From positions 682,001-746,000 of the forward strand of contig NZ_JAVDQF010000001.1 of assembly GCF_031454135.1 (NCBI RefSeq): a stretch of 64,000 bases of DNA, given 5' to 3'. Positions 40,964 to 59,738 of this stretch are shown piece after piece. Below the pieces are notes generated by a model. The model made no database searches, was not told where the DNA came from, and saw only the letters and a list, made by a program, of their open reading frames with translations. The first letter of the stretch is position 1. Each line of letters starts with the position of its first letter. Position numbers and translations under genes: made by a program. The stretch comes from Arthrobacter russicus. GTDB lineage: Bacteria > Actinomycetota > Actinomycetes > Actinomycetales > Micrococcaceae.

Positions 40964-41388
40964 TCTAGGCCACCTCGCTCTGCGGCTCTGCCGCCCCGTA
41001 ATTCCGGGCAACTTCGCTGCTTTGCGGCGGTGCTTCCGTCAGTCTACAACGTCGTCGATCTGCACGGATCTGCGGCGGAATCGGGTCGGTTTGTACGTTT
41101 CTCCGTCGTTTCTCCGTTGACCGCAGGAGCGATAACTGCCGTCGCGTCTAGCGGTGGTGTCACGTCTCCGGCGATGGCGACGGCCGGGGTCACCGGATCA
41201 GGTCCGGACGCTCGGCGCCGATGCGCCTGAGCAGACCCGACTTTCTCGCAACCACGACCAACGACAGGCAGTTCGCGCGACCGCGCTCACCGATCGGAGA
41301 GGCGGAGCTAAGTGCACGACCGTCGAGGATCACGCCATCGGTCATGACGTCACCGGGCTCGTCTACCACTCAGATGTCAGCGATCTAG
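40964..41388. other. 425-bp gene-free junction of core and accessory DNA
   Basis: No convincing coding sequence, tRNA or integrase attachment site is visible. The sequence lies between the truncated reductase gene and the stop of the PHP/SMC-like ATPase. Its codon-like periodicity is weak in every frame, and it is probably a remnant at the element boundary. Confidence 0.4.
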
Positions 41389-44028
41389 CTAGAAGTCGTA
41401 CAGGCGCTTACGGGCATCGAATGCCGTGCGTCCACCTTCCAACAGGTCTTCGGCGTACTTTCGCACCTTCGGGTTGTCGAGCGATCCGACGCCGTCGGTC
41501 GCTGTGCGGCCGTGCTGACCGTCAGCTTCGAGAGTTACGACCAACTCGGCGTCGCCCAGGACGGGCACGTTCGCGTTGTGCGTGCTCACAATTAGCTGTC
41601 GGGTGCCTTTGAGGGATCGCAGCTTTTGAACGACGCCGTCGTATACGAATCGGTTGTCGAGGTCATCTTCTGGTTGGTCGATGACAAGCGGACTCATTGA
41701 TGCGCCGAGTAAGAGCAGCAACAGTGCAGTCGCTCGCTGGCCTTTTGAGAGATCCTCAAGGCGGCGCCACTCCACCGGCGCACCCTTGGAGGCAACGTTG
41801 AGTTGCACCTCGACAGCGAGGCCGACTGACTGCTCTTCCAGTTCTCTGAACAACGGTTCTCCGGTGTCCACGATGGCCTTCGCTTGTGCGCCAGTGATGC
41901 TCAGCCCCGTTAGCGCGTCCAACCCCGACCGCGCGGCAGTTACGAACGTCGCCACATTGAAGTCATCGCGATCGATGGCGGCGAACACCTGGCCGCGCTG
42001 GGTTGTGAAGTGGTGGGAGATCACGGCCTTGATATGGCTGCGATCGGGTGATGCGATCGGCTTAACAATCACAGCTCCCGTCGTAGCGGCGTTGGATGCC
42101 TTGATGGCGTCCTTGAGTTGGTTCGCGATCTGCTTGTCAATGTCAGCCAGCGAGCGAAGCAACTTCGTTCTCTCGCCGGTCAGCTTCTTGTACGCCTTCT
42201 CGAAGACGGTTCGCTTCTCGGCACGTTTTGTGAGCCGATTGAGGTTGGCCTGCAGAGTCAGGTACTCATCTGGCTTGTGTCCTTGCTCGACCAGTTCGCG
42301 CAGCACCGCAGAGACACCGTTGCTCTCGGTCTTTGTCGTAGACTCCCACGACTGCCTGGTCGCCTCGATCTGCGTCTTGGTGTCAGCAATGGCGGCCTGC
42401 ACGGATGAGGTTGCCTGCTCAAGAGCAGTGGCGAGTTGCCCGAGTACCGGAGCGAGTTGCTCCAGAGTCGTCTTGCGGGGGGAGTCCTTGACGTCGGCCA
42501 GCTCGGCGCGAAGCTCCTCGACAACCGCTTCGATACCCCACTCGCTCACCAGATTCTCAACGGTTTGCACCCGTTCGGAGGCATCAGTCAGGACGGCGCC
42601 ATCCTTGTCCAATCGAGTCTTCTGGTCAAGCTTCGCCGCAAGATCGGTCTTGTCGAACGCTTCCATGCTTTCGGAGAGGCGGGGGATGTCCGCGAGTTCG
42701 GTCTCAAGCGCCTCCCGGTCTCGTTCGTGCTTGGCGAGTGCATCACGGTTATCCGCCAGATCCTTTAGGACGTCGTCTCGCTCGGCAGGCGACGCTGGCC
42801 TGCCGGCGACGCGTGCGACAAGCTCAGCCATCAGGTCTTTGTCCTGAGCGAGCTCGGCCAATTCGTGCTGACCGAAGATCTCGAGGTTACCGACGATGTC
42901 GCGTGGGCGCTGGTTCGTCTGCGTGCCGCTGGAGTCACGAACGATCGCCGGGCTGTTCGTTGTGCGTTCGATAGTAAAACGCGCCGGGCTAGGTGACACC
43001 ACGTCGACGACGAGCGAGATGACCGTTCCCGCGCCAAGCACGTTCTTGACCATCTCCTTGTGGTCTTTGCTGGATGCTTCGCCGATGGGCGGGATCTCCA
43101 GCACGTACCGGAGACTCTCGATAGCGGTGGATTTTCCGGTTCCACGTCCGCCGATGAGGGCCGTGAGATCCTCCGCAAGGTGGAGCTTCTGACCGTCGAG
43201 GTAGCCGCCGTCCCAAGCGATCTCGCGAAGCAGAACACGAGAAGTCGATGATGGATCGGTCGTGCTCACTCGGGTCTCCGGCGTCTTAACTGCATGACGG
43301 AGCCCCAACAGGCTGGGGGTACTCATCTTGAACCAGGTGCTCGCACCGGGAGAGGCGAGCGTCGCCGGGTCGCAGATGTCGTCGGCATGGATCGCCACCA
43401 GCGGATGGCGGCGATCGTAGGGCTTGGTCCCTTTGAGGATCTTGGCCTGGTCACCCAGTTCAGCGACAGATGGCGTGATGCCAATAGCCAGCAGTTCGCG
43501 GTGCTTGATCATCTCGGCGAGCGAGTCACCCTTCGCTCGACTCAGCAGTCCAGCGTTGGCGACGTTGGCGTGCGCCGGGATCACCAACGCGCCGCGGGCA
43601 CACATGTCGGTCAGGATATCGCCGTACGACTTCGTCGTCGTGCCCTTCGCGGCTCCGGGCGTCAAACCGCATGCACCGATCGCGGCAGTGACCTGCTCAG
43701 TTGAGGTGCCGCGCTCGAACATAACCAGCAGGTGGATGCCCTCAGACGTGTTTGCCTCGAAGCCCGGGAGCGCCGCGATGCCGGCAGCTTCCGCGTCGGC
43801 AATCAGCTGGGACGCGCTGCTGGCATTCCAGTGATCGGTGACCGCTATCAACTCAATCTTCTGCGCCTGAAACTCGGCGATCAAGGCGGCGTTGTACGTT
43901 GCTTCATCCGCGTAGGTCTTGGAGGGGGATGGGTTGCCGACGTAACCGAAGGGGTTCACCTGGAGGGCTGCGCGAATCCAGCGGGCGCCATGGTGATCAT
44001 CAGCTGCGGGTATGACGTTCTTCACCAT
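41389..44028 (-). CDS. PHP-domain/SMC-like ATPase, TrlF family
   Basis: An 879-residue protein. The N-terminal PHP-like phosphoesterase region (about 1-270) has VTDHWN, PGFEAN, PAHAN and HADD motifs, but the first HxH motif is replaced in the ALQVNPFGY segment. An ABC/SMC-type ATPase follows: Walker A GGRGTGKST (about 292-300), Q-loop region IFGQHEL, a long coiled coil (about 430-690), signature LSKGQ, Walker B DQPEDDLDN (about 780) and the H-loop STHNANVP. This resembles TrlF-family ATPases, often found in variable genome regions and suspected of roles in defence against mobile DNA. Family naming is from recall; function is inference. Confidence 0.75.
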   Translation of the reverse strand: MVKNVIPAADDHHGARWIRAALQVNPFGYVGNPSPSKTYADEATYNAALIAEFQAQKIELIAVTDHWNASSASQLIADAEAAGIAALPGFEANTSEGIHLLVMFERGTSTEQVTAAIGACGLTPGAAKGTTTKSYGDILTDMCARGALVIPAHANVANAGLLSRAKGDSLAEMIKHRELLAIGITPSVAELGDQAKILKGTKPYDRRHPLVAIHADDICDPATLASPGASTWFKMSTPSLLGLRHAVKTPETRVSTTDPSSTSRVLLREIAWDGGYLDGQKLHLAEDLTALIGGRGTGKSTAIESLRYVLEIPPIGEASSKDHKEMVKNVLGAGTVISLVVDVVSPSPARFTIERTTNSPAIVRDSSGTQTNQRPRDIVGNLEIFGQHELAELAQDKDLMAELVARVAGRPASPAERDDVLKDLADNRDALAKHERDREALETELADIPRLSESMEAFDKTDLAAKLDQKTRLDKDGAVLTDASERVQTVENLVSEWGIEAVVEELRAELADVKDSPRKTTLEQLAPVLGQLATALEQATSSVQAAIADTKTQIEATRQSWESTTKTESNGVSAVLRELVEQGHKPDEYLTLQANLNRLTKRAEKRTVFEKAYKKLTGERTKLLRSLADIDKQIANQLKDAIKASNAATTGAVIVKPIASPDRSHIKAVISHHFTTQRGQVFAAIDRDDFNVATFVTAARSGLDALTGLSITGAQAKAIVDTGEPLFRELEEQSVGLAVEVQLNVASKGAPVEWRRLEDLSKGQRATALLLLLLGASMSPLVIDQPEDDLDNRFVYDGVVQKLRSLKGTRQLIVSTHNANVPVLGDAELVVTLEADGQHGRTATDGVGSLDNPKVRKYAEDLLEGGRTAFDARKRLYDF

Positions 44029-44326
44029 CGATGTGCCTCGGTTCTTTCCTCAGTGTGAAGACTTAGGTCGAGTCAGCAAGCGCAAGCGACACTGCTCAGG
44101 CTGCTCGGGACCATCTTGCCCTGTGCCCGCGGCGCTACGTCAACCTGCGGCGATCGGTGCAGCGGGAGGGTTAGGCGCACTCGAAGACCACATCGCGCGG
44201 CACCAGGCTGCGAATGGCAGAGACCAGCGCGGTCGAGAGCCAGAGCCGACTGCAGGCAACGCGGCGTGGGGTTGTTCCGTGTGCCACGCTCCCCAGTTGC
44301 ATTGACGCTCCAGTTGAAGTGGATCA
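44029..44326. other. 298-bp gene-free spacer
   Basis: Lies between the relaxase stop and the ATPase start, both on the minus strand. It must hold the ATPase promoter. No clear promoter, repeat or small gene stands out. Confidence 0.4.
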
Positions 44327-47300
44327 TCACAGGCTCCGCGATGGGCTGGCCTGTGGTTGCTGCCGGTGCGGCATCGTGTGAGTTGCGCGTTCGGAGCGAG
44401 ACTGTGCACGGCGCAGCGCGGCGTATGCGATCCGGTACTCGGCGGCCTGTTGGGCCTTGGTGATGTCCTTCGGGTTCCCCAATGGCGCGGACCCGGCGAT
44501 CTCGTATCGGCTCCGGTAGAGCGCCACGGTCGCGACCCGTTCGAGCCATGCGTTCTGGGCACGCTGATCGCTGGGCGGCCGGAGCTTGCTCGTCCACGCC
44601 TCGGCGGAGCGCAGCGCATGCTGCGCGCTTCGCCGTGCGGCGATTTCGATGAGGACGCGGCGCGCGTCGAGCGCTGCCTGCACATCGTCCGGCGCCGGGG
44701 CATCGGGGATGGGGATGAGCCCGGCGACGCGACGGGGCCGCTTGCCTCGCCCTGCGGCGAGGTTCATCGTCGCTGAGTCCAGTGCTGTGGCGAGGCGTGC
44801 TGCCGGGTCGGCTTGCTCTTCTCCGAGGCTGATCGTCGGTGCGAGGGACGTCAGGGTGGCGTTCACATCGTGGCCCGCGGCCTCATGCCGGGCAAGGGCC
44901 CCTTCAAGGTGCTCGTAGTAGGGGCTGGTGAACACGTCGTCAGCGACGTCCTCCGGGAACGGCGCGACATCGAGAAGCACGGCCCAGCGTTCGGCGCGTG
45001 CTTCGCGGGCCAGGAGGTCGAATTCGTCCAGCAGCGTCGCGAGGGATGCGTGCCGGTCGACTTCGCGGGCGAGAGTCTCGGTGGCGGACGGGTCAGCGTC
45101 GCTGCGTGCCAGCACCCGCGCGAGGTGTCCGGTGACGGTCTTCTCCTCCGGCGGGTCAAGGTGTGGCTCGACCTCATGCGGGTCGGGCTGGATCACATAC
45201 GCCTCGTTGCGTGCTCGGCCGCGGGTCATCGCGACGTAGAACAGTTCTCGGGATGCCTTCTCGGGGTCGATGAGCGCGTGCGCGGTGTCCACGGTGGAGC
45301 CCTGCGCCCGATGCGCGGTCGCCGCGTATCCGAGCTCCACCTCGTCGGCGACGTACCCGGCCGGCAGTACGAGCGCTTTTCCGTGGGGGCCATCGCCTTT
45401 CCCGACGCGGCGGACGGCCAATGAGCCATCGTCGTAGCGGTGGGCGACGTGCCATCTGTCGCCGTTCTTCACCCATGACCGCCCTGTAGAGAGAGTGCGG
45501 TCGTTGAGGCGGGTGACGACGAGATCCCCGACTCCCGCTGTCGTCCCATCGTGAAGGAGCACTCCCTCGGCGTCGACGTGACCGGCGTCTATGAGGTCGG
45601 CGCGGGCGCGCTGGTTCAGTTCCGCGACGGCTTCACCGTTCCCGGCGATCATCAGCGTGGACAGGCCCGCCGCGCGGTCTTCCTGCCACGCGGCGTAGAG
45701 GACGTCGAGCATCTGGTCGAGCCCGCCGCCGTGCAGCCGGCCCTGCTCGTCGTAGACGTCCAGCACGCCGGGCTCGCCACGGCGCAGCGCGAGGCTGGCG
45801 GTCTTCTCCCACTCGTTGGTGAAACGGCGCACATCGGTCAGCTCGGGCACGCCGTGGCGGTGGCGTACGAGCATCCCGAACGCGCCACCGGTCTCGATCG
45901 CTGACAGCTGCGCCCAGTCGCCGATCAGCACGACCTTCGCCCCGACCTCTGCCGCGTGCGCGGTGATGCGATCCAGCGCCAGCGTGCCCGCGAGGGACGC
46001 CTCGTCGATCAGCACGAGCTGCCCGGCCTGAAGGCTCCAACGGCCTATGCCGTGCTCCCAGAGGAACTTCGCCGTGTTCTCTGCCCGCACCCCCAAGCTG
46101 TCGCCGAGAACCTCGGCAGCAGCGGCCGAAGGCGCCAGCCCGATCACGGAGTCCCTACCGTGCGCGGCCGTCCACGCCCTGTGCAGTGCGCGCAGCGCAG
46201 TCGTCTTCCCCGCGCCGGCCGGTCCGACGAGCAGATCGAGAGTGAGACCGGAGCCCGCGATCGCCGTGATCGCCGCCGCCTGATCCGGGGCAAGGGCCAC
46301 TCCGCCGATCTTGCGGGTCACGTGCCGGGAGACGAGACGCGCCGTGAGCCGCGGCGCGTCCTCGGCCTCAGCGTGCTGGAGGAGCCGTGTCTCGGCGTCG
46401 AGGATGTCCTGACTCGAGTACGCGATCTGATCGGCCGGCTGGAACCGGTTCGTCCCGTCCGTGCGCATGTACGTGTCGGGCACGGGTCGGTCGTAGTCGG
46501 GGGTGAGTCGCAGGGAATGCGCCTCGGCGTGCTGCACGATCTGGTCGAGAGCGGTGATCCGATCGCGGGTAGAGACGAAGCGCAGACCCATCAGCTGCCG
46601 CATCGCTTCGGCGTGCAGGTTCCAGCGTCCCCAGGTCGCCCGCCGGTTCGCGACCTCCATGAGCACTACCGCCGCGATGCTCTCCACCTGCCCAGCATTC
46701 AGATCATCGGCCCGCAGGCGCACCTGTCCGGCCCCGCGGGCGAGGAGATGTGCAGCCCAGGTGGTGGCGTCTTCGCCGAGCACGGCGGTCGCCCGCTCGC
46801 GCCACTGCGCGGTCAGCTCGGCGAGCGAGTGCGGATCCTTCTCCGGCCGTGTCTCCAGCGTCGCTTGCTGCCGCAGCTTCGCCACCGTCGTGCGCGACGG
46901 GGTGCGCCCGTACTCGGCGACGAAATCGTCGATCAGCCGTTGCGTGGCCTCCGCGATCCCCGCGCCGTCATCGCCGCCGCCGGTTGTGCGGCGGGAGAAC
47001 TCTGCGAGCAACCCGGCCGGGACGCCCTCGATCTCCCAGCCGGTGTTGCGGTCCTTCCCGCGGTCCACCGGCACCCACACCACGTCCAGTAGCCGGGCGG
47101 TGTGATCGGTGAGGAACGCGTTGTACGACGCCGACAGCGCCACCGTGGCTCGGTGCAGTGTCCGGGAGTCCAGCGACCGCCAGTGCCCGTCCTCGCCCTG
47201 CACCTTGTTCGACACGACCAGGTGCGTGTGCAGCTGTGGGTCGGCGGCGCGGGAGTCGTAGTGATCGAATGCCGTCGCGATGACGCCGACCACCGGCATG

Positions 47301-47899
47301 CGGGCGATCCCGCCATGCCCGACCCGAGTCGCGGCGACCCGCTGCTCGAGATGCGCGAGCGTGTCGCGCATCGCGGCATGATGAGCCTGGGCGATCAGCG
47401 ACTGCGTGCCCGCGTCGGCGACACCCCAGATCGCGCTCAGCGACTTCGGCGGCGAGAACGTCAGATCGAACCCCGCAACCGCGGTGCGAGGCTTCTTCGC
47501 CAGCTCCTCCGCGCGGATGCGGTCGATCGCTTCGTCTCGGTGCCCGCCAGTGAGCGATGCGTCGAGCTTCGCAACCCGGGTTGCGATGCGCTCGCGCGGG
47601 GGTTGCAGCCGCGGATACCGCAACCCCAGCGGCGCGCCGGTCACCGGATGAACGCCGTCACCCAGGAGGCGTGCGAGCTGTTCCTCGGTCACCTGATCAC
47701 CATCTGCGAGAGCTGGGCCCTGTCCAGTGTCCAGACTCGTGAGCCCGGCGCCGAGCCAAAGGCCCGGCGGGCTACCCGTCTCGGTGTAATAGCGGGTCAG
47801 GGCGGTGCCCATGTCGCGGTCTCCGTCGCCCGCGACGACCGACTTGAGGAGATACTCGTAGCCGCGACCGGACGACATCACGCGGATCGTCATCACCAC
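44327..47899 (-). CDS. MobF-type conjugative relaxase-helicase (TraA/TrwC-like)
   Basis: A 1190-residue protein that nicks one strand at oriT and unwinds it during conjugation. The N-terminal TrwC-type relaxase domain (about 1-330) has a candidate catalytic Tyr in GYEYLLKSV, FDLTFSPPKSLSA, and the metal-binding HTH at residues 224-226 in DPQLHTHLVVSN. A RecD-like helicase follows, with Walker A GPAGAGKTT near 560, LIDEASLAG, and the C-terminal TAHRAQGSTVD and YVAMTRGR motifs. The basic C-terminal tail may bind partners. The start is GTG at 47899 (GGAGGGG upstream), with ATG at 47893 as alternative. No T4SS genes are in the window. Confidence 0.92.
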   Translation of the reverse strand: MVMTIRVMSSGRGYEYLLKSVVAGDGDRDMGTALTRYYTETGSPPGLWLGAGLTSLDTGQGPALADGDQVTEEQLARLLGDGVHPVTGAPLGLRYPRLQPPRERIATRVAKLDASLTGGHRDEAIDRIRAEELAKKPRTAVAGFDLTFSPPKSLSAIWGVADAGTQSLIAQAHHAAMRDTLAHLEQRVAATRVGHGGIARMPVVGVIATAFDHYDSRAADPQLHTHLVVSNKVQGEDGHWRSLDSRTLHRATVALSASYNAFLTDHTARLLDVVWVPVDRGKDRNTGWEIEGVPAGLLAEFSRRTTGGGDDGAGIAEATQRLIDDFVAEYGRTPSRTTVAKLRQQATLETRPEKDPHSLAELTAQWRERATAVLGEDATTWAAHLLARGAGQVRLRADDLNAGQVESIAAVVLMEVANRRATWGRWNLHAEAMRQLMGLRFVSTRDRITALDQIVQHAEAHSLRLTPDYDRPVPDTYMRTDGTNRFQPADQIAYSSQDILDAETRLLQHAEAEDAPRLTARLVSRHVTRKIGGVALAPDQAAAITAIAGSGLTLDLLVGPAGAGKTTALRALHRAWTAAHGRDSVIGLAPSAAAAEVLGDSLGVRAENTAKFLWEHGIGRWSLQAGQLVLIDEASLAGTLALDRITAHAAEVGAKVVLIGDWAQLSAIETGGAFGMLVRHRHGVPELTDVRRFTNEWEKTASLALRRGEPGVLDVYDEQGRLHGGGLDQMLDVLYAAWQEDRAAGLSTLMIAGNGEAVAELNQRARADLIDAGHVDAEGVLLHDGTTAGVGDLVVTRLNDRTLSTGRSWVKNGDRWHVAHRYDDGSLAVRRVGKGDGPHGKALVLPAGYVADEVELGYAATAHRAQGSTVDTAHALIDPEKASRELFYVAMTRGRARNEAYVIQPDPHEVEPHLDPPEEKTVTGHLARVLARSDADPSATETLAREVDRHASLATLLDEFDLLAREARAERWAVLLDVAPFPEDVADDVFTSPYYEHLEGALARHEAAGHDVNATLTSLAPTISLGEEQADPAARLATALDSATMNLAAGRGKRPRRVAGLIPIPDAPAPDDVQAALDARRVLIEIAARRSAQHALRSAEAWTSKLRPPSDQRAQNAWLERVATVALYRSRYEIAGSAPLGNPKDITKAQQAAEYRIAYAALRRAQSRSERATHTMPHRQQPQASPSRSL

Positions 47900-47946
47900 G
47901 GCGCGCCCCTCCCGAGCCGGTCTCAGGAGGGGGCCGCCTCAGCGGC

Positions 47947-47978
47947 AAGGTGCGCGCAGCGCGCCCGCTCGCACCCTT
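47947..47978 (-). other. Candidate oriT (inverted repeat upstream of relaxase)
   Basis: AAGGTGCG at 47947-47954 and CGCACCCTT at 47970-47978 form an imperfect inverted repeat with one extra base. Inside it, GCGCG-CAG-CGCGC forms a second small hairpin. It lies 48 bp before the relaxase start, where origins of transfer usually sit. No nic site can be fixed from sequence alone. Confidence 0.35.
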
Positions 47979-48238
47979 GGTGCCAACAGTGTGTGTGCTC
48001 TTCGTCGACGGAGTAGCTCGTGTCGGCGATCATCACTGCCAGTGGCCAATCGGGCCAAGCTCACTGTGAAGCGGGCGGAGAACAGCAGCCGTGCGACGCG
48101 TCTTCAGCCGGCTGAGGGGATGCTCGATGTTCCGCTTCCGATGAATCAAAGGGGCGCAGTCAACGGAGATATCACGAGTGCGGCGATAGAGGATCGTGAA
48201 ACCGATCGCATCTCCCATTATCTGCGTAACTGCGTAGG

Positions 48239-48244
48239 TATGAT
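48239..48244 (+). promoter_or_regulatory. Candidate -10 box and dyad of the hisD-arsR operon
   Basis: TATGAT matches the -10 consensus at five of six bases and lies inside the dyad GGTA-N6-TACC (48237-48250). An ArsR repressor site overlapping the promoter would fit. It is about 200 bp before hisD, and the -35 is poor. Confidence 0.3.
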
Positions 48245-48443
48245 GCTACCATGAGGTGTGGCACTTCCTTCGACGAGGAACATGCCACAGGCCGTCGGGT
48301 CTGCACTGCCTCGCCCGGATCGGCGTGGTTCTCGTTATGAGAGGAACGATCATCTCCATCATCTCCATCACCTTCGAGCCGATCATGGCTTCTGCAACTT
48401 TGCGTGTCGCCCCCGCAGGGCCTGTGGCTCGGGGGATCGGGCG

Positions 48444-49811
48444 ATGACTCACGCGTTCGGAAGTGTTGCTGTGCGCGTGATCGGTTTTCGTGGAAGCTCT
48501 GCCACCCGGGATGAGGTGCGCCGTGCCGTGCCGCGCGCGGTCGTGGATTTGGCGGGGGCGATTCCTGCGGCGTCTTCGACCATTGCTGACGTGCGACGCG
48601 ACGGGTTTCCTGCAGTTGCGGAGCTCGCTGCCCGATTCGATCGGGTTGAGCAACAGATGCTGCGGGTGCCGGCGGAGGCTTTGGCGGAAGCATCCTCCGC
48701 GCTTGCGCCGGAGCTTCGTGGTGCGTTGGAGGAGGTGATCGAGCGGACCCGTCGGTTCGCGAGCTCACAGTTACCCGCCCCGGTCGTGGTGGGCTTCGAA
48801 GGGGACGCCCAAGTGTCGTTGAACTGGTTCCCCATCGAGCGGGCTGGTGTATACGTTCCTGGAGGGAAGGCGGTGTACCCGTCGTCCGTGGTGATGAACG
48901 TGGTTCCCGCTCAAGTCGCCGGTGTGCGCTCGATCGCGTTGGCGAGCCCCCCGCAGGTCGAACACGGCGGTTTGCCACACCCGACGATCCTCGCGACGGC
49001 GGCGATGCTGGGCATCGACGAGGTCTATGCCATCGGGGGCGCCCAGGCGGTCGCTGCTCTCGCGTACGGCATCGAGGACCCGGCGCAAGAACGTCGCGTC
49101 CAGCCGGTGGATCTGATCACGGGGCCTGGGAATGTGTACGTCGCGGCCGCGAAGCGTCTGGTCCGCGACACGGTCGCGGTGGACATGGAGGCCGGCGCGA
49201 CAGAGGTGATGATCCTGGCGGACTCGCTCGCCGACCCGATGCTGATTGCTGCCGACATGATCTGCCAGGCCGAGCACGACGAGTACGCCGCCGCCGTCTT
49301 GGTCACCGATTCCACCTCCCTGGCCCTTGCCGTGCAGACGGAACTGGATCGACAGGTCGCCTTCACGCCCCATGCGGATCGGGTGCGGGCTGCTCTGACG
49401 GGTCAGCAGTCGGCGATCGTGATCGTCGACGACATCGAGCACGGCATCGAGGTCTGCGATGCATACGCCCCTGAGCATCTCGAGATCCATTGCGACGACG
49501 CTGACGGGGTGGCCGGGCATGTGCGTAACGCTGGCGCGATCTTCATCGGCGCGTCCACGCCGGTGAGTCTTGGGGACTACTGCGCCGGCTCCAACCATGT
49601 ACTGCCCACCGGAGGCACGGCCACGTTCTCCTCCGGACTCACGGTGCACACGTTCCTACGGGCGGTGCAGACCGTGCGCTACCCGGCCGCTGCCCTCAGC
49701 CACGTGCGGGAGACGGTGCGCGTGCTCAGCGCCGCGGAGGATCTCCCCGCGCACGGCGCGGCCTTGGAGGCCCGCTTTGCCCACTCCCGGACGAACATCC
49801 AGCAAGGCTGA
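48444..49811 (+). CDS. hisD: Histidinol dehydrogenase, on accessory element
   Basis: A zinc enzyme that oxidises L-histidinol to L-histidine in two NAD steps. The 455-residue protein has every expected residue: zinc ligands Q275 and H278 in CQAEHDEY, catalytic E344-H345 in YAPEHLEI, D378 in GDYCAGSNH, and H437 near the C-terminus (LPAHG). It should therefore be active. The ATG at 48444 was chosen as first Met near the family N-terminus. It lies 7 bp before an ArsR gene and a metal ATPase, away from any other his gene, so a role in metal tolerance rather than housekeeping histidine synthesis is suggested. Confidence 0.93.
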   Translation: MTHAFGSVAVRVIGFRGSSATRDEVRRAVPRAVVDLAGAIPAASSTIADVRRDGFPAVAELAARFDRVEQQMLRVPAEALAEASSALAPELRGALEEVIERTRRFASSQLPAPVVVGFEGDAQVSLNWFPIERAGVYVPGGKAVYPSSVVMNVVPAQVAGVRSIALASPPQVEHGGLPHPTILATAAMLGIDEVYAIGGAQAVAALAYGIEDPAQERRVQPVDLITGPGNVYVAAAKRLVRDTVAVDMEAGATEVMILADSLADPMLIAADMICQAEHDEYAAAVLVTDSTSLALAVQTELDRQVAFTPHADRVRAALTGQQSAIVIVDDIEHGIEVCDAYAPEHLEIHCDDADGVAGHVRNAGAIFIGASTPVSLGDYCAGSNHVLPTGGTATFSSGLTVHTFLRAVQTVRYPAAALSHVRETVRVLSAAEDLPAHGAALEARFAHSRTNIQQG

Positions 49812-49818
49812 CGTGTCG

Positions 49819-50163
49819 ATGGTTCAGATGACGGCGGAAAGTGAGGATCGCGCGATCGCGGGAGCCGTGGATGTTTTCCGTACTCTCGCCGAGGGGACAC
49901 GGATCCGGATCATCCTTGCACTCGCGCAACACCCCGAGAGTTCAGTTGGCCAGCTCGCGAGCCGAGTGGGTCGGCCCGCGCCGGCGGTTTCCCAGCATCT
50001 GAACCGGCTGCAGCGGAGCGGGATGGTCCGCCGTCGGCGAGATGGTCAACGCATGCTCTATCACCTCGTCGATGAACACGCCGCAGACCTCGCCAACACC
50101 GCACTGCACTACGCGGCGGTGCATCTGGAGGATCGGCCGACGCATCACGCACAGACCCGATAG
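49819..50163 (+). CDS. ArsR/SmtB-family metal-sensing repressor
   Basis: A 114-residue winged-helix repressor. The HTH recognition region reads SVGQLASRVGRPAPAVSQHLNRLQRSG, the wing is RRRRDGQRML, and the C-terminal helix has D-E-H followed ten residues later by His, then H-L-E and a THH tail. This resembles the alpha-5 D-x-H...H zinc/nickel/cobalt sites of SmtB, CzrA and NmtR/KmtR, but the spacing is one residue short of SmtB. No alpha-3 CxC (arsenic/cadmium) pair is present. ATG 49819 or GTG 49813 is the start. Its position between hisD and the P-type ATPase points to control of both. Confidence 0.88.
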   Translation: MVQMTAESEDRAIAGAVDVFRTLAEGTRIRIILALAQHPESSVGQLASRVGRPAPAVSQHLNRLQRSGMVRRRRDGQRMLYHLVDEHAADLANTALHYAAVHLEDRPTHHAQTR

Positions 50164-50200
50164 ACCTCCGATCATCCTGCTGAGAGATAGGAACCCGCCC

Positions 50201-52123
50201 ATGACCGACCCCATTGCCGCGGACACCGCGGCCCGCCCCGCGGGAAACCGCACAACGTTCATGTCCTTGATGACGCGCGAGCGCTGGATCGAGGTCGCTC
50301 GTATCCTTCTGACCGGGTTGGTGGCCTTCCTATACTGGCAGCAGCTCATCCCGGTTCCCGTGCTGTGGGTGGCCGTCGCCGTCGGTCTGTATCCGCTGGT
50401 GAAGACGGGCCTGATCGATCTGTTCACCGAACGGAAGATCGGAACCGAGTTGTTCGTCACCGTCGCGACGATTTTCGCGCTGGTCGGAGGCGAAGAGGTC
50501 GCGGGAAGTGTGCTCATGGTGATCATCCTCATCGCTGAGTTCATCGCCGACCTCAACACCGACCGCGCGCGTGCGTCCATCCAGGGACTGATCGGCGCGG
50601 TCCCTACTATTGCGCGGGTCCGTGACAACGGGCAGGAGCGCGTGGTCCCGATCGCGGAGCTGCACGTCGATGACGTTGTCCTGGTCCGCGCGGGTGACAG
50701 CATCCCCGTCGACGGCACGGTCGTCGCCGGAGATGGGGCGGCGGATGAGGCGTCCGTCACGGGCGAAAGCGTCCCGAAGGACAAGTCCGCTGGCTCGCGC
50801 GTGTTCGCCGGCACGATCCTCAAGTCCGGGGCACTGGACGTGCGCACCGAAGCGGTCGGGGAGCAGACCACGTTCGCGCGGATCGTGGCCCTCGTCGAGG
50901 ACGCTGAGGATTCCCGCGCCCCCGTGCAAAAACTCGCGGACAAGGTCGCTGCCTGGCTCATCCCGTTGATCATCGTGTTCCTTGTGGTTGTGTTCCTCGT
51001 CACGCGGGATGTGAGCATGATCGTTACACTCATGATCTTCACATCGCCCGCGGAACTGGCGCTGGCGACCCCGATGGTGATCATCGCCGCCATCGCGCGC
51101 GCCGCACGCAGCGGCATCCTGATCAAGGGCGGAATCTACTTGGAAAGCCTCGCCCGGGCGACCACCGTCGTATTCGACAAGACCGGAACCCTGACCGTCG
51201 GTAGCCCGAAGGTCAGCGCCGTCCGCATCGCTGACGCCTCCGTCGAACGTGATGAGCTGCTCCGGCTCACCGCGGGCCTGGACCGCCGCTCCAGCCACCC
51301 CCTCGCCGAAGCCATCGTCACCTATGTGCGCGAGGCCGGCGTAGAGATCCCCGAGCCGACCGATTTCCAGGTCGTCCCCGGCCGAGGCGTCACCGGAACG
51401 GTCGAAGGACGTGCCCTGCTTGTCGGCAACGCTGCCCTGCTCGCCGAGGCGGGGATCGACGTGCCATCCACTGCGGAGGCGACGACGGTCATCCACGTTG
51501 CCGCGGACGGACGTCTGATCGGCAGCTTCGAACTCGAGGACCAGATCCGGCCCGGCGCGAAAGAAGCCATCGCCGGGCTCCGTGTGAACGGTGTCAAGCG
51601 GATCGCGATGCTCACCGGTGACAATGCCGCCGTCGCCGGTCGTGTCGCAGAGAACCTCGGCATCGACGAGGTCTACGCCGATCTGCTCCCGGAGGACAAG
51701 GTCGACGTCATCTCACAGATGCAAGCCCGTGGTGAGCGGGTCGCGATGGTCGGCGACGGCATCAACGATGCCCCCGCTCTTGCCCTCGCCGAGACCGGGA
51801 TCGCGATGGGTGCAGGCGGCACTCAGGCCGCGATCGAGGCCGCCGATGTCGCCCTCATGACCGACGATCTCAGCAAGATCGTCGGCGTGCGCGCGATCGC
51901 CCGCCGGGCCTACCGCACGATCCAGGAGAACTTGTTCGTCGGCGTCGGCGTCGTGCATGTGCTCGGCATCACCGCTGCCCTGTTGGGCTGGATCGGCCCG
52001 ATCCAGGCCGCTATCATCCACCTCGGTCCCGACATTCTCGTGTTCTTGAACTCCACCAAGCTGCTCAGCGTCCGCATCAAGACCGGTCCGGACACTGCTC
52101 TTGAGCCATTGCGGCGCGACTAG
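50201..52123 (+). CDS. Heavy-metal P-type ATPase with SPA instead of CPC membrane motif
   Basis: A 640-residue P1B-like ATPase without an N-terminal metal-binding domain. It has the TGES phosphatase loop, the phosphorylation site D326-KTGTLT, the H366-P dipeptide in SSHPLAEA, GDGINDAPA, and about eight helices. In the metal-binding helix where CPC or SPC is normal, the sequence is T-S282-P-A-E-L, with no Cys. The last helix carries H607-L-G-P-D611 instead of the usual D or HEG motif. The ion is therefore unlikely to be copper; a divalent metal bound by O/N ligands is inferred. It starts 37 bp after the arsR stop. Confidence 0.85.
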   Translation: MTDPIAADTAARPAGNRTTFMSLMTRERWIEVARILLTGLVAFLYWQQLIPVPVLWVAVAVGLYPLVKTGLIDLFTERKIGTELFVTVATIFALVGGEEVAGSVLMVIILIAEFIADLNTDRARASIQGLIGAVPTIARVRDNGQERVVPIAELHVDDVVLVRAGDSIPVDGTVVAGDGAADEASVTGESVPKDKSAGSRVFAGTILKSGALDVRTEAVGEQTTFARIVALVEDAEDSRAPVQKLADKVAAWLIPLIIVFLVVVFLVTRDVSMIVTLMIFTSPAELALATPMVIIAAIARAARSGILIKGGIYLESLARATTVVFDKTGTLTVGSPKVSAVRIADASVERDELLRLTAGLDRRSSHPLAEAIVTYVREAGVEIPEPTDFQVVPGRGVTGTVEGRALLVGNAALLAEAGIDVPSTAEATTVIHVAADGRLIGSFELEDQIRPGAKEAIAGLRVNGVKRIAMLTGDNAAVAGRVAENLGIDEVYADLLPEDKVDVISQMQARGERVAMVGDGINDAPALALAETGIAMGAGGTQAAIEAADVALMTDDLSKIVGVRAIARRAYRTIQENLFVGVGVVHVLGITAALLGWIGPIQAAIIHLGPDILVFLNSTKLLSVRIKTGPDTALEPLRRD

Positions 52124-52149
52124 CCAGCATGCACGACAGCGCCCACGCC

Positions 52150-52194
52150 GTCGATGGGCTGCGCAGATCTCGGTCTCTGCACAGCCCGTCGACG
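52150..52194. repeat. Long hairpin between the P-type ATPase and VIT genes
   Basis: A 12-bp outer stem (GTCGATGGGCTG with CAGCCCGTCGAC, one G-U) continues after a single mismatch into a 5-bp inner stem (GCAGA/TCTGC) with an 8-nt loop. No U tract follows. It could be a Rho-independent terminator lacking a U tract, or an RNA stability element. Confidence 0.6.
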
Positions 52195-52248
52195 ACGCGG
52201 TCTCCACTTGATCGCGCTAGCGACGCATACGATTTGGAAGAAGGACCC

Positions 52249-52947
52249 ATGACCACTCCCACGTCCTCCGCTGCCCGCGTCCAGCGTCTCAACAGGCTGC
52301 GTGCCGGAGTCCTCGGCGCCAACGACGGGATCGTGTCCGTCGCGACTGTCGTCGTCGGCGTCGCCAGCGCCGCTGCAGGGGAACCCGCCCTTCTCTCCGC
52401 TGGCGTTGCCGCTCTCGTCGGCGGCGCCATCTCGATGGCCCTGGGCGAATACGTCTCCGTCAGCAGCCAGCGTGACAGCCAACGCTCCGCGATCGACGAG
52501 GAACGCGGACACCTCGCCGCCGACCCCGATGCCGAGTTCCAGGAACTGATCGCGTCGTATCAGGCTCGCGGTCTCACCGAAGCCACGGCCCGGAGGGTCG
52601 CCGACGAGCTCTCCGCTCACGACGCGCTGGCCGCCCACATCGACATCGAGCACCGCCTGGCCGAGGATGAGGTCGTCAGCGCATGGGGTGCAGCGACCGC
52701 GTCCGCGATCGCCTTCCTCGTCGGCGGCGTCGTGCCCTTCCTCGCGATCCTCCTGCTGCCCACAGGTATCCGCATCCCGGCCACCTTCGTGCTGGTGCTC
52801 TTCGCCCTCGCCGTCACCGGCGCACTCGGCGCCCGACTCGGCAACGCCCGACCGGGACGGGCGGCCGTGCGTGTCGTCGTCGGCGGCACCATCGCCCTAG
52901 CCGCGACATACGGAATCGGCACCCTGCTGGGGACCGGAACGGTCTAG
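52249..52947 (+). CDS. VIT/CCC1-family Fe2+/Mn2+ transporter
   Basis: A 232-residue membrane protein of the vacuolar iron transporter family, which moves Fe2+ or Mn2+ out of the cytoplasm. The family start (LRAGVLGANDGIVSVATVVVGVASA) is clear. The GAISMALGEYVSVSSQRDSQ helix carries the conserved metal-path Met/Glu/Tyr. A cytoplasmic helical hairpin rich in Glu (about 80-125) forms the metal-collecting domain, and three C-terminal helices follow. AAGGA precedes the ATG at 52249. It is the last metal gene of the hisD cassette. Confidence 0.88.
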   Translation: MTTPTSSAARVQRLNRLRAGVLGANDGIVSVATVVVGVASAAAGEPALLSAGVAALVGGAISMALGEYVSVSSQRDSQRSAIDEERGHLAADPDAEFQELIASYQARGLTEATARRVADELSAHDALAAHIDIEHRLAEDEVVSAWGAATASAIAFLVGGVVPFLAILLLPTGIRIPATFVLVLFALAVTGALGARLGNARPGRAAVRVVVGGTIALAATYGIGTLLGTGTV

Positions 52948-53008
52948 GACCCACCCCCGCGCACCAGTCCGGAAACCCTGCGTCCGCTCGACCTGCGAAG
53001 AGACCCCT

Positions 53009-54187
53009 ATGCCTCACACCGACCGACCGCGCAGTCCCGGCTCCCAAGACGCACGGACTCCGCTCCGCGAGCGCTTTGCTGTGAACTGGGCGCGCCTGCA
53101 CGCGGAAGACCGCATCCCCGGCATCGACCTCGCGCGAGGCATGGCCGTGGTGGGGATGTTCGCCGCGCACCTGCTGTGGATTACGCCGCTGGTCTGGAGC
53201 GACCCGGGAACCTGGACGGGCATCGTGCAGGGCCGCTCCTCGATCCTGTTCGCCACACTCGCCGGAGTCTCCCTGGGGGTGATGGCTGGCGGGGCCCGGC
53301 GGCCCAGCCCCGCGGAACTGCCGGCGCTACGGGCACGACTGGTCTACCGGTCCCTGCTGCTCTGGCTACTGGGCGTCGTCCTCCTCGGCCTCGGTATCCC
53401 GGTCTACATCATCCTGCCCGCCTACGCGATCCTGTTCCTCCTCGCGCTGCCATTCTTGCCCCTCCGCCCGCGGCAGGTGCTGATCGTTGCGGGAGGGATC
53501 GGGCTTCTCGCCCCTTTCCTGCAGGCATGGGTCGACGCCCTCCCGTGGTGGGAGACCGGCAGCGGTCGCATGGCGGCGTGGCTGCTCGGGTGGCACTACC
53601 CGTTCCCGGTCTGGATCGCGTTCGTGCTCGCCGGCCTCGGACTCGCCCGCACCGACATTCGCCGGTTGCGCACCCAGCTGGCGATGCTCGGTGCTGGCAT
53701 TGCCCTCGCGGTCCTCGGGTACGGCCTCGACGCCGTCTCCGGCACGCGGGACGTCCCCGACGATGGGGCGTTCTGGGACGTGCTGTGGACTGCCGAACCA
53801 CACTCCAGCGGGCTTCTCGAGGTGATCGGCTCCGGTGGGTTCGCCATCGCCGCGATCAGTGTGTGCCTGCTCGCCTGCCGCACACCACTGATTTGGATCA
53901 CCCTGCCGCTGCGGGCCACCGGCAGCATGCCGCTCACCGCCTATGTCACACAGCTCCTCCTGTGGGCGGTGCTCGCCAGCATCGGCCTTGGCACCACCGG
54001 CGACCTCGGCGCGTTCCGTGACACGGCCCCGTTCTGGCCTCTGACCATCGCAACCATTACAGGCTGCACCGTCTGGGCGCTACTGATCGGGCGTGGACCG
54101 CTCGAGCGGGCGATGACCCACCTGCCCGCCCGTCGCTCGACGTCATCGGGGCGGTCCATCCCGCGAGACGATGCGCACCGCCCCTAA
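53009..54187 (+). CDS. DUF418/DUF1624-type membrane protein
   Basis: A 392-residue polytopic protein with about ten helices. It has the opening RIPGIDLARGMAVVGMFAAHLL, a segment with RSSILFATLAGVSLG, and RATGSMPLTAYVTQ near the end. These are marks of the DUF418/heparan-alpha-glucosaminide acetyltransferase-like membrane acyltransferases. The substrate is unknown. It sits between the VIT gene and the convergent copper module; whether it serves metal resistance is unclear. Confidence 0.75.
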   Translation: MPHTDRPRSPGSQDARTPLRERFAVNWARLHAEDRIPGIDLARGMAVVGMFAAHLLWITPLVWSDPGTWTGIVQGRSSILFATLAGVSLGVMAGGARRPSPAELPALRARLVYRSLLLWLLGVVLLGLGIPVYIILPAYAILFLLALPFLPLRPRQVLIVAGGIGLLAPFLQAWVDALPWWETGSGRMAAWLLGWHYPFPVWIAFVLAGLGLARTDIRRLRTQLAMLGAGIALAVLGYGLDAVSGTRDVPDDGAFWDVLWTAEPHSSGLLEVIGSGGFAIAAISVCLLACRTPLIWITLPLRATGSMPLTAYVTQLLLWAVLASIGLGTTGDLGAFRDTAPFWPLTIATITGCTVWALLIGRGPLERAMTHLPARRSTSSGRSIPRDDAHRP

Positions 54188-54231
54188 CGTTCGGTTCCGA
54201 TCCCTCCGGAGCAAACGGCGCCGAGGCGGTG

Positions 54232-54852
54232 TCAGCCGTTCATCAAGACGAGCATCACGCCCATGCCGGCGGCCATCACGGCGTGGCAGGCGGCATGCAG
54301 GCGATGGTGGCCGCTGCGGATCAGCCGGGAGAGCCACCACAGCATGGTCGCGGCGCTAAGCACGATGAAGGCCACGTTGACGACGTCAACCCATATCGGA
54401 GTTGCCATCATCATCGGGGCGGCATCGCCCATCGGCATCTGCCCGTCCATACCCATCTCGGAGCCGTCACCCATGTCCATGGGCATGTCGGCCATCAGCA
54501 GCGGCATCGCGGCGAGCATCCAGATCATCGCGGCGTTCAGAACGAGGTGCCCCGCCACGTCGACGCGCGCCGTGGCGGCACGGGCGCGGACCAGCAACGG
54601 CACGAGGACGATGGTGAGCATCGCGAACACCCCGACCTGCACCCATAGCGCGAGCGCGGACTCCATTGACCAGGACATCCAGATCATCGCCGCCGACATC
54701 AGGATGTGGTTGATGTCGATCAGGATCTCCCCGTCGAACGGCTTCCCGTTCCGACGCGTCCTCCTCAACCGGGGCGTGAGGTCGATCAGGCAGACCAGAC
54801 CGGTGAACACGAAGGCGACGGTCAGGATGATGTTCCACGGAGCAGCGATCAC
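54232..54852 (-). CDS. DUF5134 membrane protein with Met-rich loop
   Basis: A 206-residue protein with five to six helices. Between helices 4 and 5 lies an extracytoplasmic-type loop (about residues 120-150) with many Met in M-x-M and MPM patterns, typical of Cu(I)-binding segments, and there are His/Met pairs in DINHILMSAAMIWM and HAACHAVMAAGM. I use DUF5134 from recall of similar actinobacterial proteins. GTG at 54852 was chosen because a -10 box (TAGTCT) lies 6 nt upstream; TTG at 54858 is in frame. It follows copA on the same strand, separated by a palindromic operator. Confidence 0.75.
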   Translation of the reverse strand: MIAAPWNIILTVAFVFTGLVCLIDLTPRLRRTRRNGKPFDGEILIDINHILMSAAMIWMSWSMESALALWVQVGVFAMLTIVLVPLLVRARAATARVDVAGHLVLNAAMIWMLAAMPLLMADMPMDMGDGSEMGMDGQMPMGDAAPMMMATPIWVDVVNVAFIVLSAATMLWWLSRLIRSGHHRLHAACHAVMAAGMGVMLVLMNG

Positions 54853-54858
54853 ACCCAA

Positions 54859-54864
54859 AGACTA
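54859..54864 (-). promoter_or_regulatory. Candidate -10 box of the DUF5134 gene
   Basis: TAGTCT on the minus strand ends 6 nt before the GTG start, giving a leaderless layout. It abuts the palindromic operator at 54865-54877. Confidence 0.4.
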
Positions 54865-54877
54865 CTACAACTTGTAG
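54865..54877. promoter_or_regulatory. BlaI/CopY-type operator (13-bp palindrome)
   Basis: CTACAA-C-TTGTAG is a perfect dyad containing TACA-N3-TGTA, the core of sites bound by MecI/BlaI/CopY repressors. It lies directly upstream of the DUF5134 promoter. The module encodes a repressor of this family at 60563-60940. Confidence 0.65.
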
Positions 54878-54898
54878 ATATGGGGGGACTTGCGGGGG

Positions 54899-57175
54899 TC
54901 AGCGACGGTCGCTCCGCGGGGTGGTGGTGCGGCGGAAGTTCTGCAACCGGAGGCTGTTGTAGACCACAAGGACGGAGGAGAGCGCCATCGCACCGGCGGC
55001 GATGAGCGGATTGAGCAGTCCGGCGGCGGCGATGGGGATCGCGGCGATGTTGTACCCGAATGCCCAGCCGAGATTGGTCTTGATGGTGCGCAAGGTGCGG
55101 CGGGACAGGGCGATGGCGTCGGGGATGACAGCGAGGTCGTCGCGGACGAGGATGATGTCGGCGGATTTCAGGGCGATGTCGGAGCCGGAGACCATGGCAA
55201 GCCCAAGGTCGGCGGCGGCAAGGGCCACGGCATCATTGATACCATCGCCGACCATCGCGACCCGATCACCGCTGTCCTGCAGGCTGCGGATCGCGTCGGC
55301 CTTCTGGGCGGGCAGCACCCCGGCGAGCACCGTGTCGATACCGAGGCGGGCGGCCACGCTCGCGGCCGCTGCGGGGGTGTCGCCGGTGAGCAGGACGGTC
55401 TTCATGCCTTGGGCGTGCAGTGCGGCGACTGCGGTGCGGGCGTCGCGTTTGATCGTGTCCCGGAGCCCGATCCGCCCCAGGAGCAGGCGGCCGCGTGCCA
55501 CGAGCACGGATGTCTCCGCGGCCTGACCCGTACTGTTGTCGAGATTATCGGCGGCGTCTGGCTCGTCGGGCACGTCGATGGCGTGGTCGAGGAGGAACGC
55601 CCGGCTGCCGACGAGGACCGGCTCGCCGTGGAGCTGTCCGGACGCACCGCGCCCGGGGTGGGCGGTGAGCCCGGCGACGGGGGCGATCTCGATGCCTCGG
55701 TTCTCGGCGGCGGTGAGGATGGCTCGGGCGATGATGTGCTCGGAGCCGCGCTCGACAGCCGCGGCGACGGCGAGGAGCTCCTGTTCGGTGACGCCGTCAA
55801 CGGGGGCGAGGCGGTGGGCGGTCATCGAGCCGGTGGTGAGGGTGCCGGTCTTGTCCAGGACGACGGTGGTGATGGTGCCGCTGGCTTCGAGCGCGTCCTG
55901 ACCTTTGACGAGGATGCCCAGAGTCGCTCCTCGGCCGATGCCGACCATCAGCGCGGTCGGTGTCGCAAGCCCCAGGGCGCAGGGGCAGGCGATGATGAGC
56001 ACCGAGATCCCGATCCCGAATGCCTGCTCGAACGACGTCCCGGCGATCATCCACCCGGCGGCGACGAGGACGGCCAGGACGATCACGGCGGGCACGAAGT
56101 AGCTGGTGACCTTGTCGACGAGGGTCTGTACCCGCGCCTTACGCGCCTGGGCCTGCTCCGCCAGCGCCGCCATTTGCGCGAGCTGAGTATGCGCACCCAC
56201 CAACGTCGCCCGTACCTCTAGCCGGCCGTCCATGCTGATCGTGCCGCCGACCACTCCATCTCCCGGTGTCAGGTCGGCGGGGACGGGTTCGCCGGTGAGC
56301 ATGCTGGCGTCCACCGCCGCGGCCCCCTCGATGATCACGCCGTCCGCGGGGATGGTCTCGCCCGGCAGTACTACGAAGACGTCCCCGGCGCGCAGTGCGG
56401 TCGCCGGCTGGATCTCCTCGGTGTTGTCGGTGCGGATGCGGACGTGGGTGGCGGCGAGCTGGTTCAGCGCGCCGAGCACGTCGCCGGCTTTGCGGCGGGA
56501 GCGGGTCTCGAAGTAGCGGCCGGCGAGCTGGAAGGTGGTCATCCCGGCGGCGACATCCAGGTAGACGGAGTTCGCGCCTTCCGGGGTCACGCCGAACCCG
56601 AGCCAGTACCCGGTGCCCTCCTGACCGAGGCCGAACAGGAGGGTGGCGACGGCCCACCCGAACGAGGCCGCGATGCCGAGGGAGACGAGGGTGTCCATGC
56701 TGACCGTGCCGTGCCGCAAGTTGCGCAGGGTCGCCTTGTGGAACGGCCAGGCCGCCCACGCAACGATCGGCAGCGCCAACAGCACGCACACCCACTCCCA
56801 CCCCGGGAACCGCCACCCCGGCACTAGCGCCAGGACGATAGTGATGTCCATCAAGGGAACGGTGAGGATCGCCGAGACCAACAGCCGGCGCCGCAACGAG
56901 CTGATCCGCACTTCGGTGGCTCGCCGAGACCAGGCGTCGTCTGCGTCATCATGCGGGTGCGCCCCGTACCCGGCCTTTTCCACCCGCCGGACCGCCTCGT
57001 CGACCCGGTCTGGGGAGAGTCCAGTGACGAGGGCGCGTTCGGTGGCGTAGTTCACGCTCGCGCTCACCCCCTCCAGCCCATTCAAGGCACGCTCGACGCG
57101 GCCCGCGCAGGCCGCGCAGGTCATCCCGGACACATCCAGCTGCACCGCCTCGAGCATCGGCGTGGTGGTCGTCAT
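54899..57175 (-). CDS. copA: Copper-exporting P-type ATPase
   Basis: A 758-residue P1B-1 ATPase that pumps Cu(I) out of the cytoplasm. It has an N-terminal HMA domain with C20-x-x-C23 (GMTCAACAG), eight helices, the membrane site C397-P-C399 (ACPCALGLATP), DKTGTLTTGS and GDGINDAVAL. The ATP-domain His-Pro dipeptide is altered to His-Ile (GSEHIIARA), an unusual change at a conserved place. ATG at 57175 overlaps the ctaG stop (ATGA), so translation is coupled to the membrane protein upstream. Confidence 0.95.
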   Translation of the reverse strand: MTTTTPMLEAVQLDVSGMTCAACAGRVERALNGLEGVSASVNYATERALVTGLSPDRVDEAVRRVEKAGYGAHPHDDADDAWSRRATEVRISSLRRRLLVSAILTVPLMDITIVLALVPGWRFPGWEWVCVLLALPIVAWAAWPFHKATLRNLRHGTVSMDTLVSLGIAASFGWAVATLLFGLGQEGTGYWLGFGVTPEGANSVYLDVAAGMTTFQLAGRYFETRSRRKAGDVLGALNQLAATHVRIRTDNTEEIQPATALRAGDVFVVLPGETIPADGVIIEGAAAVDASMLTGEPVPADLTPGDGVVGGTISMDGRLEVRATLVGAHTQLAQMAALAEQAQARKARVQTLVDKVTSYFVPAVIVLAVLVAAGWMIAGTSFEQAFGIGISVLIIACPCALGLATPTALMVGIGRGATLGILVKGQDALEASGTITTVVLDKTGTLTTGSMTAHRLAPVDGVTEQELLAVAAAVERGSEHIIARAILTAAENRGIEIAPVAGLTAHPGRGASGQLHGEPVLVGSRAFLLDHAIDVPDEPDAADNLDNSTGQAAETSVLVARGRLLLGRIGLRDTIKRDARTAVAALHAQGMKTVLLTGDTPAAAASVAARLGIDTVLAGVLPAQKADAIRSLQDSGDRVAMVGDGINDAVALAAADLGLAMVSGSDIALKSADIILVRDDLAVIPDAIALSRRTLRTIKTNLGWAFGYNIAAIPIAAAGLLNPLIAAGAMALSSVLVVYNSLRLQNFRRTTTPRSDRR

Positions 57176-59247: not shown

Positions 59248-59456
59248 GACAGCACCGTGTAGCCGGCCTCCGTGACCGCCGACTCGACGGCGGCGCGTTC
59301 CACCGGGCTCGTGTGCTGTAGCCGGACCCGGCCGGACGTGGCGTCCGCGTCTACCCCGACGACCCCCGGCACCTCGCTCAGCTCGGTTCGCAGCGTCCGC
59401 TCGCAGTGTGCGCAGGTCATCCCGTTCACCACGAGCTCGGACTCATCCATACCCAT
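59226..59456 (-). CDS. copZ: Copper chaperone (HMA domain)
   Basis: A 76-residue single heavy-metal-associated domain with the Cu(I)-binding C-x-x-C in NGMTCAHCERTL. It would deliver copper to the HMA domain of CopA. GGAAGGA precedes ATG 59456 at good spacing; a GTG one codon earlier and an ATG two codons later are alternatives. Its C-terminal 22 bp overlap ctaG. A TACA-type box with a -10 sequence lies about 30 bp upstream. Confidence 0.88.
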   Translation of the reverse strand: MGMDESELVVNGMTCAHCERTLRTELSEVPGVVGVDADATSGRVRLQHTSPVERAAVESAVTEAGYTVLSWTTDQL

Positions 59457-59484
59457 CACGTCCTTCCCGTCACGCACCCCACTA

Positions 59485-59500
59485 ACTCTACAAGATGTCC
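59485..59500 (-). promoter_or_regulatory. Promoter and BlaI-type box of the copZ operon
   Basis: On the minus strand GGACATCTTGTAG (59488-59500) matches the perfect palindrome at 54865-54877 at 9 of 13 positions. A TAGAGT -10 box (59485-59490) overlaps it. Binding of the repressor here would block copZ-ctaG-copA. Confidence 0.5.
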
Positions 59501-59738
59501 AAGATCGTTCGGTCAGGACGAAACCTGGAGCCGGCGGATTCGACAGGCGTTCTCGGCCGGACCGAGTCGATCGCTGCCACCTCACCGGAACCGGTGGCGC
59601 GAGGGTGAGTTGCGGACAGTCGCGCCTGCCGCGGTGCTTGTCTGGACGTCCGCGCGACCACGCCACCGATGGCGGGTTTCCCTCCGAGCGCTGCCACTGT
59701 CGTCCGGAGCTGTTCGATGCGATCTGCTGCGTCCTTCG

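Follow-up and report, generated by a model that had tools for sequence, protein, structure and literature searches.

Why does a gene for histidinol dehydrogenase (hisD) lie directly beside the gene of an ArsR-type metal sensor, and close to genes for a P-type ATPase and a VIT transporter, in Arthrobacter russicus? The question arose from an initial annotation of this locus, which placed the four genes on what looked like a mobile element and suggested that the ATPase could represent a little-studied P1B subtype tied to histidine chemistry. We analysed a window of 64,000 nucleotides (contig positions 682001-746000) of the 3.82 Mb chromosome. The reading to which we give an even chance is that the locus is a Ni(II)/Co(II)-type resistance operon on an integrated conjugative element, in which a metal-controlled exporter and a histidine enzyme would be co-expressed. 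All four genes were recovered by profile matches, and the features on which the argument depends are as follows (window positions).

44327-47899, minus strand: MobF relaxase of the carrying element (NF041492, 226 bits against a cut-off of 100)
48218-48241, plus strand: putative operator of the KmtR type, TTATCTGCGTAACTGCGTAGGTAT, which overlaps the promoter (half-sites at the correct N8 spacing, the left one perfect and the right one matching at 4 of 6 positions)
48251-48447, plus strand: two short upstream open reading frames (48251-48340, 29 aa; 48337-48447, 36 aa; read from the sequence)
48444-49811, plus strand: hisD2, extra histidinol dehydrogenase, 455 aa (TIGR00069 / PF00815; motifs intact)
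49819-50163, plus strand: ArsR/SmtB repressor, diverged and probably KmtR-type, 114 aa (NF033788, 80.9 bits against a cut-off of 55)
50201-52123, plus strand: Cys-free P1B ATPase, 640 aa (TIGR01525, 537.5 bits against a cut-off of 346; FTSPAELALATP in TM4, IHLGPDILVFLNS in TM6)
52249-52947, plus strand: VIT1/CCC1 family membrane protein, Fe/Mn-type transporter family (PF01988, 203.1 bits against a gathering score of 28.1)
53009-54187, plus strand: DUF418/HGSNAT-type membrane protein (PF04235 and PF07786)
54232-60940, opposite strand to the cassette: copper-type module (CopA-like ATPase with HMA domain, DUF5134, CtaG-like protein, M48/M56 peptidase, BlaI-type repressor)

The carrying island

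Chromosomal genes end and an accessory island begins approximately 41 kb into the window. The island carries, in this order, a TrlF-type ATPase, the MobF relaxase, the hisD cassette and the copper module, and genes for Prim-Pol, ParB and an M23 peptidase follow 3' of the window end. Comparison of positions 41000-60900 with another genome of the same species (G398) returned only matches to distant paralogues (64-80%). The proposed mobile element is borne out by the relaxase, the absence from G398 and the genes beyond the window, and the data support a conjugative-type island that is missing from the same-species genome. The TrlF-family AAA ATPase (41389-44028, 450 bits), whose gene adjoins that of the relaxase, also resembles the anti-phage protein Ppl, though less strongly.

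Just past the window, about 18 kb downstream of the cassette, the same island contains a canonical nreB-kmtR operon (contig 747852-749515), in which a KmtR-type operator covers the nreB start codon. Its kmtR gene (contig 747852-748196) rules out that the window arsR is the sole KmtR-like gene of the genome. Beside this operon, on the other strand, lies a gamma-glutamyltranspeptidase (GGT) gene that is 72% identical to the GGT of a cluster in Microbacterium sp. SA39 (see below). A second DUF418 gene nearby (L185:5341-6215, where L185:2852-4515 equals contig 747852-749515) was recovered by tblastn as two pieces in different frames and is probably frameshifted.

The extra histidinol dehydrogenase

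Although the hisD2 reading frame is open from 48258, conservation of the protein begins with the ATG at 48444. The product matches TIGR00069 over the full domain with 446.6 bits (curated cut-off 243.8), and the motifs for zinc binding and catalysis (QAEH, APEHLE, GDYCAGSNH and EDLPAH) are all present, in agreement with the initial description of a full-length gene with intact catalytic motifs. The spacing to arsR is indeed 7 bp (49812-49818), and hisD, arsR and the genes for the P1B ATPase, VIT and DUF418 proteins all run in the same direction. The genome holds three other HisD-family genes, i.e., a dnaE-linked housekeeping copy (56-57% identical to hisD2) and two distant homologues (35-37%; contig 2082460 and 2089263, 7 kb apart on opposite strands), and hisD2 is therefore a spare copy. 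A similar pair of distant HisD-family genes occurs in SA39. The housekeeping HisD shares 99% identity with its counterpart in Renibacterium sp. MAG RGIG571, and an Arthrobacter-type hisD was also encountered beside dnaE on a contig of Sporosarcina beigongshangi, which is probably due to contamination or mislabelling.

In a tree of 116 HisDs, the hisD2 protein groups with one from Microbacterium SA39 (64% identity; SH-aLRT 100) in a clade with a long stem (0.99), apart from the housekeeping copies, while the HisD of an Arthrobacter FB24 plasmid forms a separate long branch. Like the dnaE-linked actinobacterial enzymes, hisD2 is full-length with all active-site motifs, but it falls in its own clade, lies outside the dnaE-hisD locus and has a putative metal-type operator. 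Both members of the window/SA39 clade have Cys adjoining the zinc-ligand Gln, where all 112 others have Ser, along with other substitutions, including G245A and I246V, at positions that do not vary elsewhere.

HisD is a zinc enzyme, and these substitutions, together with the long stem, could be read differently: the housekeeping HisD might be poisoned or mis-metallated by Ni, Co or Cd, and hisD2 would be an inducible, metal-proof stand-in whose changed active-site neighbourhood restores histidine prototrophy under stress. We consider this doubtful. All zinc and catalytic ligands of hisD2 are kept, so that it should be poisoned too, and the FB24 enzyme lacks the changes.

The regulator and a putative operator ahead of hisD

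The ArsR protein is 41-48% identical to ArsRs whose genes are followed by those of MFS or CDF exporters. In seven of eight sampled plasmids with the closest ArsRs, the gene immediately after arsR encodes an MFS or CDF protein, and in genomes of the family a His-rich CDF gene comes next. A C-terminal EH...QAEH...HH pattern is common among these relatives, and gene context and this His pattern argue for assigning these ArsRs to the KmtR type. The C-terminal His and Glu residues of KmtR reportedly have ligand roles, as described by Campbell et al. in 2007. The window protein scores above the NF033788 cut-off but departs from the full pattern (EH, QAEH, HH): the first His and the HH are kept, the Glu-His of QAEH, a pair conserved in most relatives, is replaced by Ala-Val, new His residues occur at other positions, and the MxAD N-terminus of the relatives is lacking. 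Given these losses, the metal may differ or the sensor may be poor; either the window ArsR senses differently, or the canonical KmtR of the island would act in trans.

KmtR controls a CDF in M. tuberculosis (PMC5315480, PMC7689651), and kmtR and nreB confer Ni resistance in Streptomyces (PMC9195940). The cassette shares with such modules (M. tuberculosis KmtR-Rv2025c; Streptomyces mirabilis kmtR-nreB) a related ArsR, whose relatives have an exporter gene directly downstream, and a putative operator of the same type, and a canonical copy is present on the host island. In the cassette, however, hisD is the first gene, the predicted exporters are a P1B ATPase and a VIT protein, the ligand pattern of the ArsR is partly lost, and the putative operator lies not over the arsR start but in the promoter of hisD.

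The common operator of KmtR-type arsR genes, ATCTGC-N8-GCAGAT, overlaps their start codon. A matrix was built from the operators of 12 relatives and the 64-kb window was scanned on both strands. The best site on both strands (13.8 / 12.4) starts at 48218, in the promoter/operator region of hisD (approximately 48214-48241). Its both-strand score was matched in one of 300 shuffled windows and its single-strand score in 37 of 300; with a matrix of four sites, none of 200 shuffled windows matched it. With one mismatch allowed, TTATCTGCGTA has a single occurrence in the window, against a chance mean of 0.16. The score of 13.8 is nevertheless low compared with 24-41 for the sites of relatives (leave-one-out), and the right half of the site is degenerate. 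When the whole genome was searched with a pattern fitted to this site, two sequences matched exactly, i.e., the site itself and one 21 kb downstream, near the nreB-kmtR operon of the island.

Between the putative operator and hisD, two tiny open reading frames are chained to each other and to hisD by ATGA overlaps and could possibly encode leader peptides. An Rfam search upstream of hisD for a riboswitch or attenuator returned nothing above the gathering score, and the predicted folding of the leader did not differ significantly from shuffled sequences (z-score -0.62). A his-type leader read from a His-rich frame (LHHLHHL) upstream of hisD was dropped for lack of support.

A P1B ATPase free of cysteine

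The ATPase (start ATG at 50201) has TSPAE at residues 281-285 and HLGPD at residues 607-611, so that the T-S-P-A and HLGPD noted initially are confirmed. It contains no cysteine at all and lacks an N-terminal metal-binding domain. The AlphaFold2 model (pLDDT 78.6) has a P1B fold, with P1B pumps as the top Foldseek matches, and among solved structures the P1B-4 pump sCoaT (PDB 7qbz) is closest by sequence. P1B-4 pumps are characterized by SPC in TM4 and HEGxT in TM6 (PMC8880997). With this group (CoaT/CtpD; sCoaT) the window protein shares the lack of an N-terminal metal-binding domain, eight predicted TM helices and a His at the HEGxT position of TM6, but SPC is replaced by SPA-E and HEGxT by HLGPD. 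Neither does it carry the CPC or CPH in TM4 of P1B-1, -2 and -3 pumps. A P1B ATPase with another unusual TM4 motif, CPD (TCPDALGLATP), is encoded elsewhere in the genome (contig 3433957-3435717).

Three plasmid-encoded proteobacterial proteins, from Cupriavidus, Shinella and Rhizobium, are 66-68% identical to the window ATPase, and FTSPAELxLATP, a TM5 stretch with VVHVLG, and IHLGPDxxVFLNS are invariant across the four. The protein was not seen in 395 other genomes of the phylum (E<=1e-180) or in six genomes of the genus (E<=1e-120), and viral contigs contained no close ATPase (33-43% identity over long matches). Four members in two phyla with invariant TM4, TM5 and TM6 motifs support a distinct and rare Cys-less P1B subtype. 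This part of the initial proposal therefore stands, but the tie to histidine chemistry finds no support, since hisD is absent beside the three plasmid relatives and elsewhere pairs with MFS and CDF genes. A divalent metal that takes O/N ligands would be the likely cargo, with Ni, Co, Mn, Fe or Zn more plausible than Cu(I) or Cd.

VIT proteins are classically Fe/Mn transporters. Genes for a P-type ATPase and a VIT protein also adjoin each other on two plasmids, one from Bosea and one from Roseateles, whose ATPases are 35-42% identical, and the ATPase-VIT pairing thus recurs. The cassette probably reaches on to the DUF418 gene, whose product is 56.6% identical to the DUF418 protein encoded directly upstream of arsR-nreB-hisD in SA39.

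The nature of the VIT protein and the hard-ligand site of the ATPase, the conserved positions lost from the ArsR and the neighbouring copper module (CopA, CtaG, BlaI/M56) would all suit an operon that responds to another metal (Mn, Fe, Zn or Cu), with the Ni/Co reading deriving solely from relatives of the regulator. This explanation, which partly overlaps the others, seems unlikely to us, as the operator resembles the KmtR type, a canonical nreB-kmtR operon is present on the same island, and the Cupriavidus relative of the ATPase is encoded near dmeF and nccXHC.

Association of hisD with metal genes in other genomes

The initial annotation linked hisD to the SPAE-type ATPase, but this pairing was found in no other genome in everything searched. 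A recurring linkage does hold for hisD with a KmtR-type ArsR and a metal-type exporter, as observed in SA39 and FB24. In SA39 the order is DUF418, arsR, MFS (nreB), hisD; the MFS protein is of the TIGR00900 type, though below the cut-off of that model, the stop codon of nreB overlaps the start codon of hisD (GTGA), and a second hisD of the housekeeping type is present separately. The FB24 plasmid carries hisD, a hypothetical gene, arsR, a His-rich CDF, an MFS (60% identical to that of SA39) and a second arsR. There, hisD and arsR are 577 bp apart, and hisD has no clear operator; the sole shared 9-mer also occurs inside hisD and was not counted.

The cassette and the SA39 cluster share the HisD clade, the KmtR-type ArsR and DUF418 but differ in gene order and in the exporter, an MFS protein in SA39 and a P1B ATPase with VIT in the window. 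Since nreB-kmtR, DUF418 and the GGT gene were found near the second operator site, the island as a whole has five genes in common with SA39 (KmtR, NreB, HisD, DUF418 and GGT), in a different order. Judged by gene neighbourhood, it is the KmtR-type regulator that recurs beside hisD, and not the ATPase, and because hisD, DUF418, an MFS exporter of the metal type and a related ArsR come together in an independent operon of SA39, the grouping in the cassette appears to be more than chance.

It might still be argued that hisD is passenger cargo without a metal role, which has repeatedly become attached to metal-resistance islands, either by chance or because an amino-acid gene adds to fitness. Such pairings are indeed rare: nothing close to HisD2 was detected in 245 genomes of the family (FB24 query) or in 299 from a different family of the order (SA39 query), both sets being without a positive control, or among 72,556 plasmids. 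Matches to 'plasmid' hisD genes in Tsukamurella and Microbacterium turned out to be ordinary loci (hisD-hisC-hisB; hisD-nrdR). We nonetheless regard a passenger role as improbable in view of the operon structure in two distant genera, the translational coupling in SA39, the putative operator ahead of hisD and the intact enzyme motifs. A link of hisD with NreB-type determinants was not found in the literature searched.

A possible mechanism

The Ni/Co-type resistance operon draws its support from the gene order, the intact motifs of a spare enzyme, its recurrence with KmtR-type regulators and NreB/CDF-type exporters, and the operator match. From these we infer metal identity, expression, repression, transport and histidine benefit as follows. 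At low metal, a KmtR-type ArsR (the cassette's own and/or the canonical KmtR of the island) on the operator would silence hisD-arsR-ATPase-VIT(-DUF418), and it would leave the operator once the level of Ni/Co or a similar divalent metal increases. The Cys-free ATPase would then export the metal through an O/N-ligand site formed by the Glu of SPAE, the His and Asp of HLGPD and the TM5 His, and the VIT protein may deal with an Fe/Mn imbalance or with the same metal. The extra HisD would raise or protect the last step of histidine synthesis and thereby provide enough free histidine as chelator.

Histidine binds Ni, Co, Cu and Zn. HisD is the last enzyme of the his pathway, but the flux-controlling one is HisG, so that more HisD alone may not raise histidine. 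In E. coli, Ni plus Cu induces the his operon and histidine rescues growth, although in long exposures a lasting benefit of more histidine synthesis could not be shown (PMC12724342). Brucella his mutants, including hisD, are Cu-sensitive (PMC13001215). The link between histidine and nickel offered initially is supported by the literature and by the recurrence of hisD beside KmtR-type ArsRs and NreB/CDF-type exporters. A more elaborate scheme would have HisD, GGT and the DUF418/HGSNAT-type proteins produce a metal ligand derived from histidine and carry it out of the cell, or would have the Cys-free ATPase pump a metal-histidine complex via its Glu/His/Asp site; in our opinion this is very improbable.

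Implications

Reports on animals, yeast and fungi describe metal tolerance based on free histidine, and the same is suspected for bacteria. Our results suggest that extra histidine synthesis belongs to the metal-resistance kit of this island. If true, histidine-based tolerance would gain direct genetic support from a mobile resistance determinant that brings along a histidine gene under metal control. The ATPase group would, in addition, add a P1B subtype with a cysteine-free transport site, which bears on how these pumps choose their metals.
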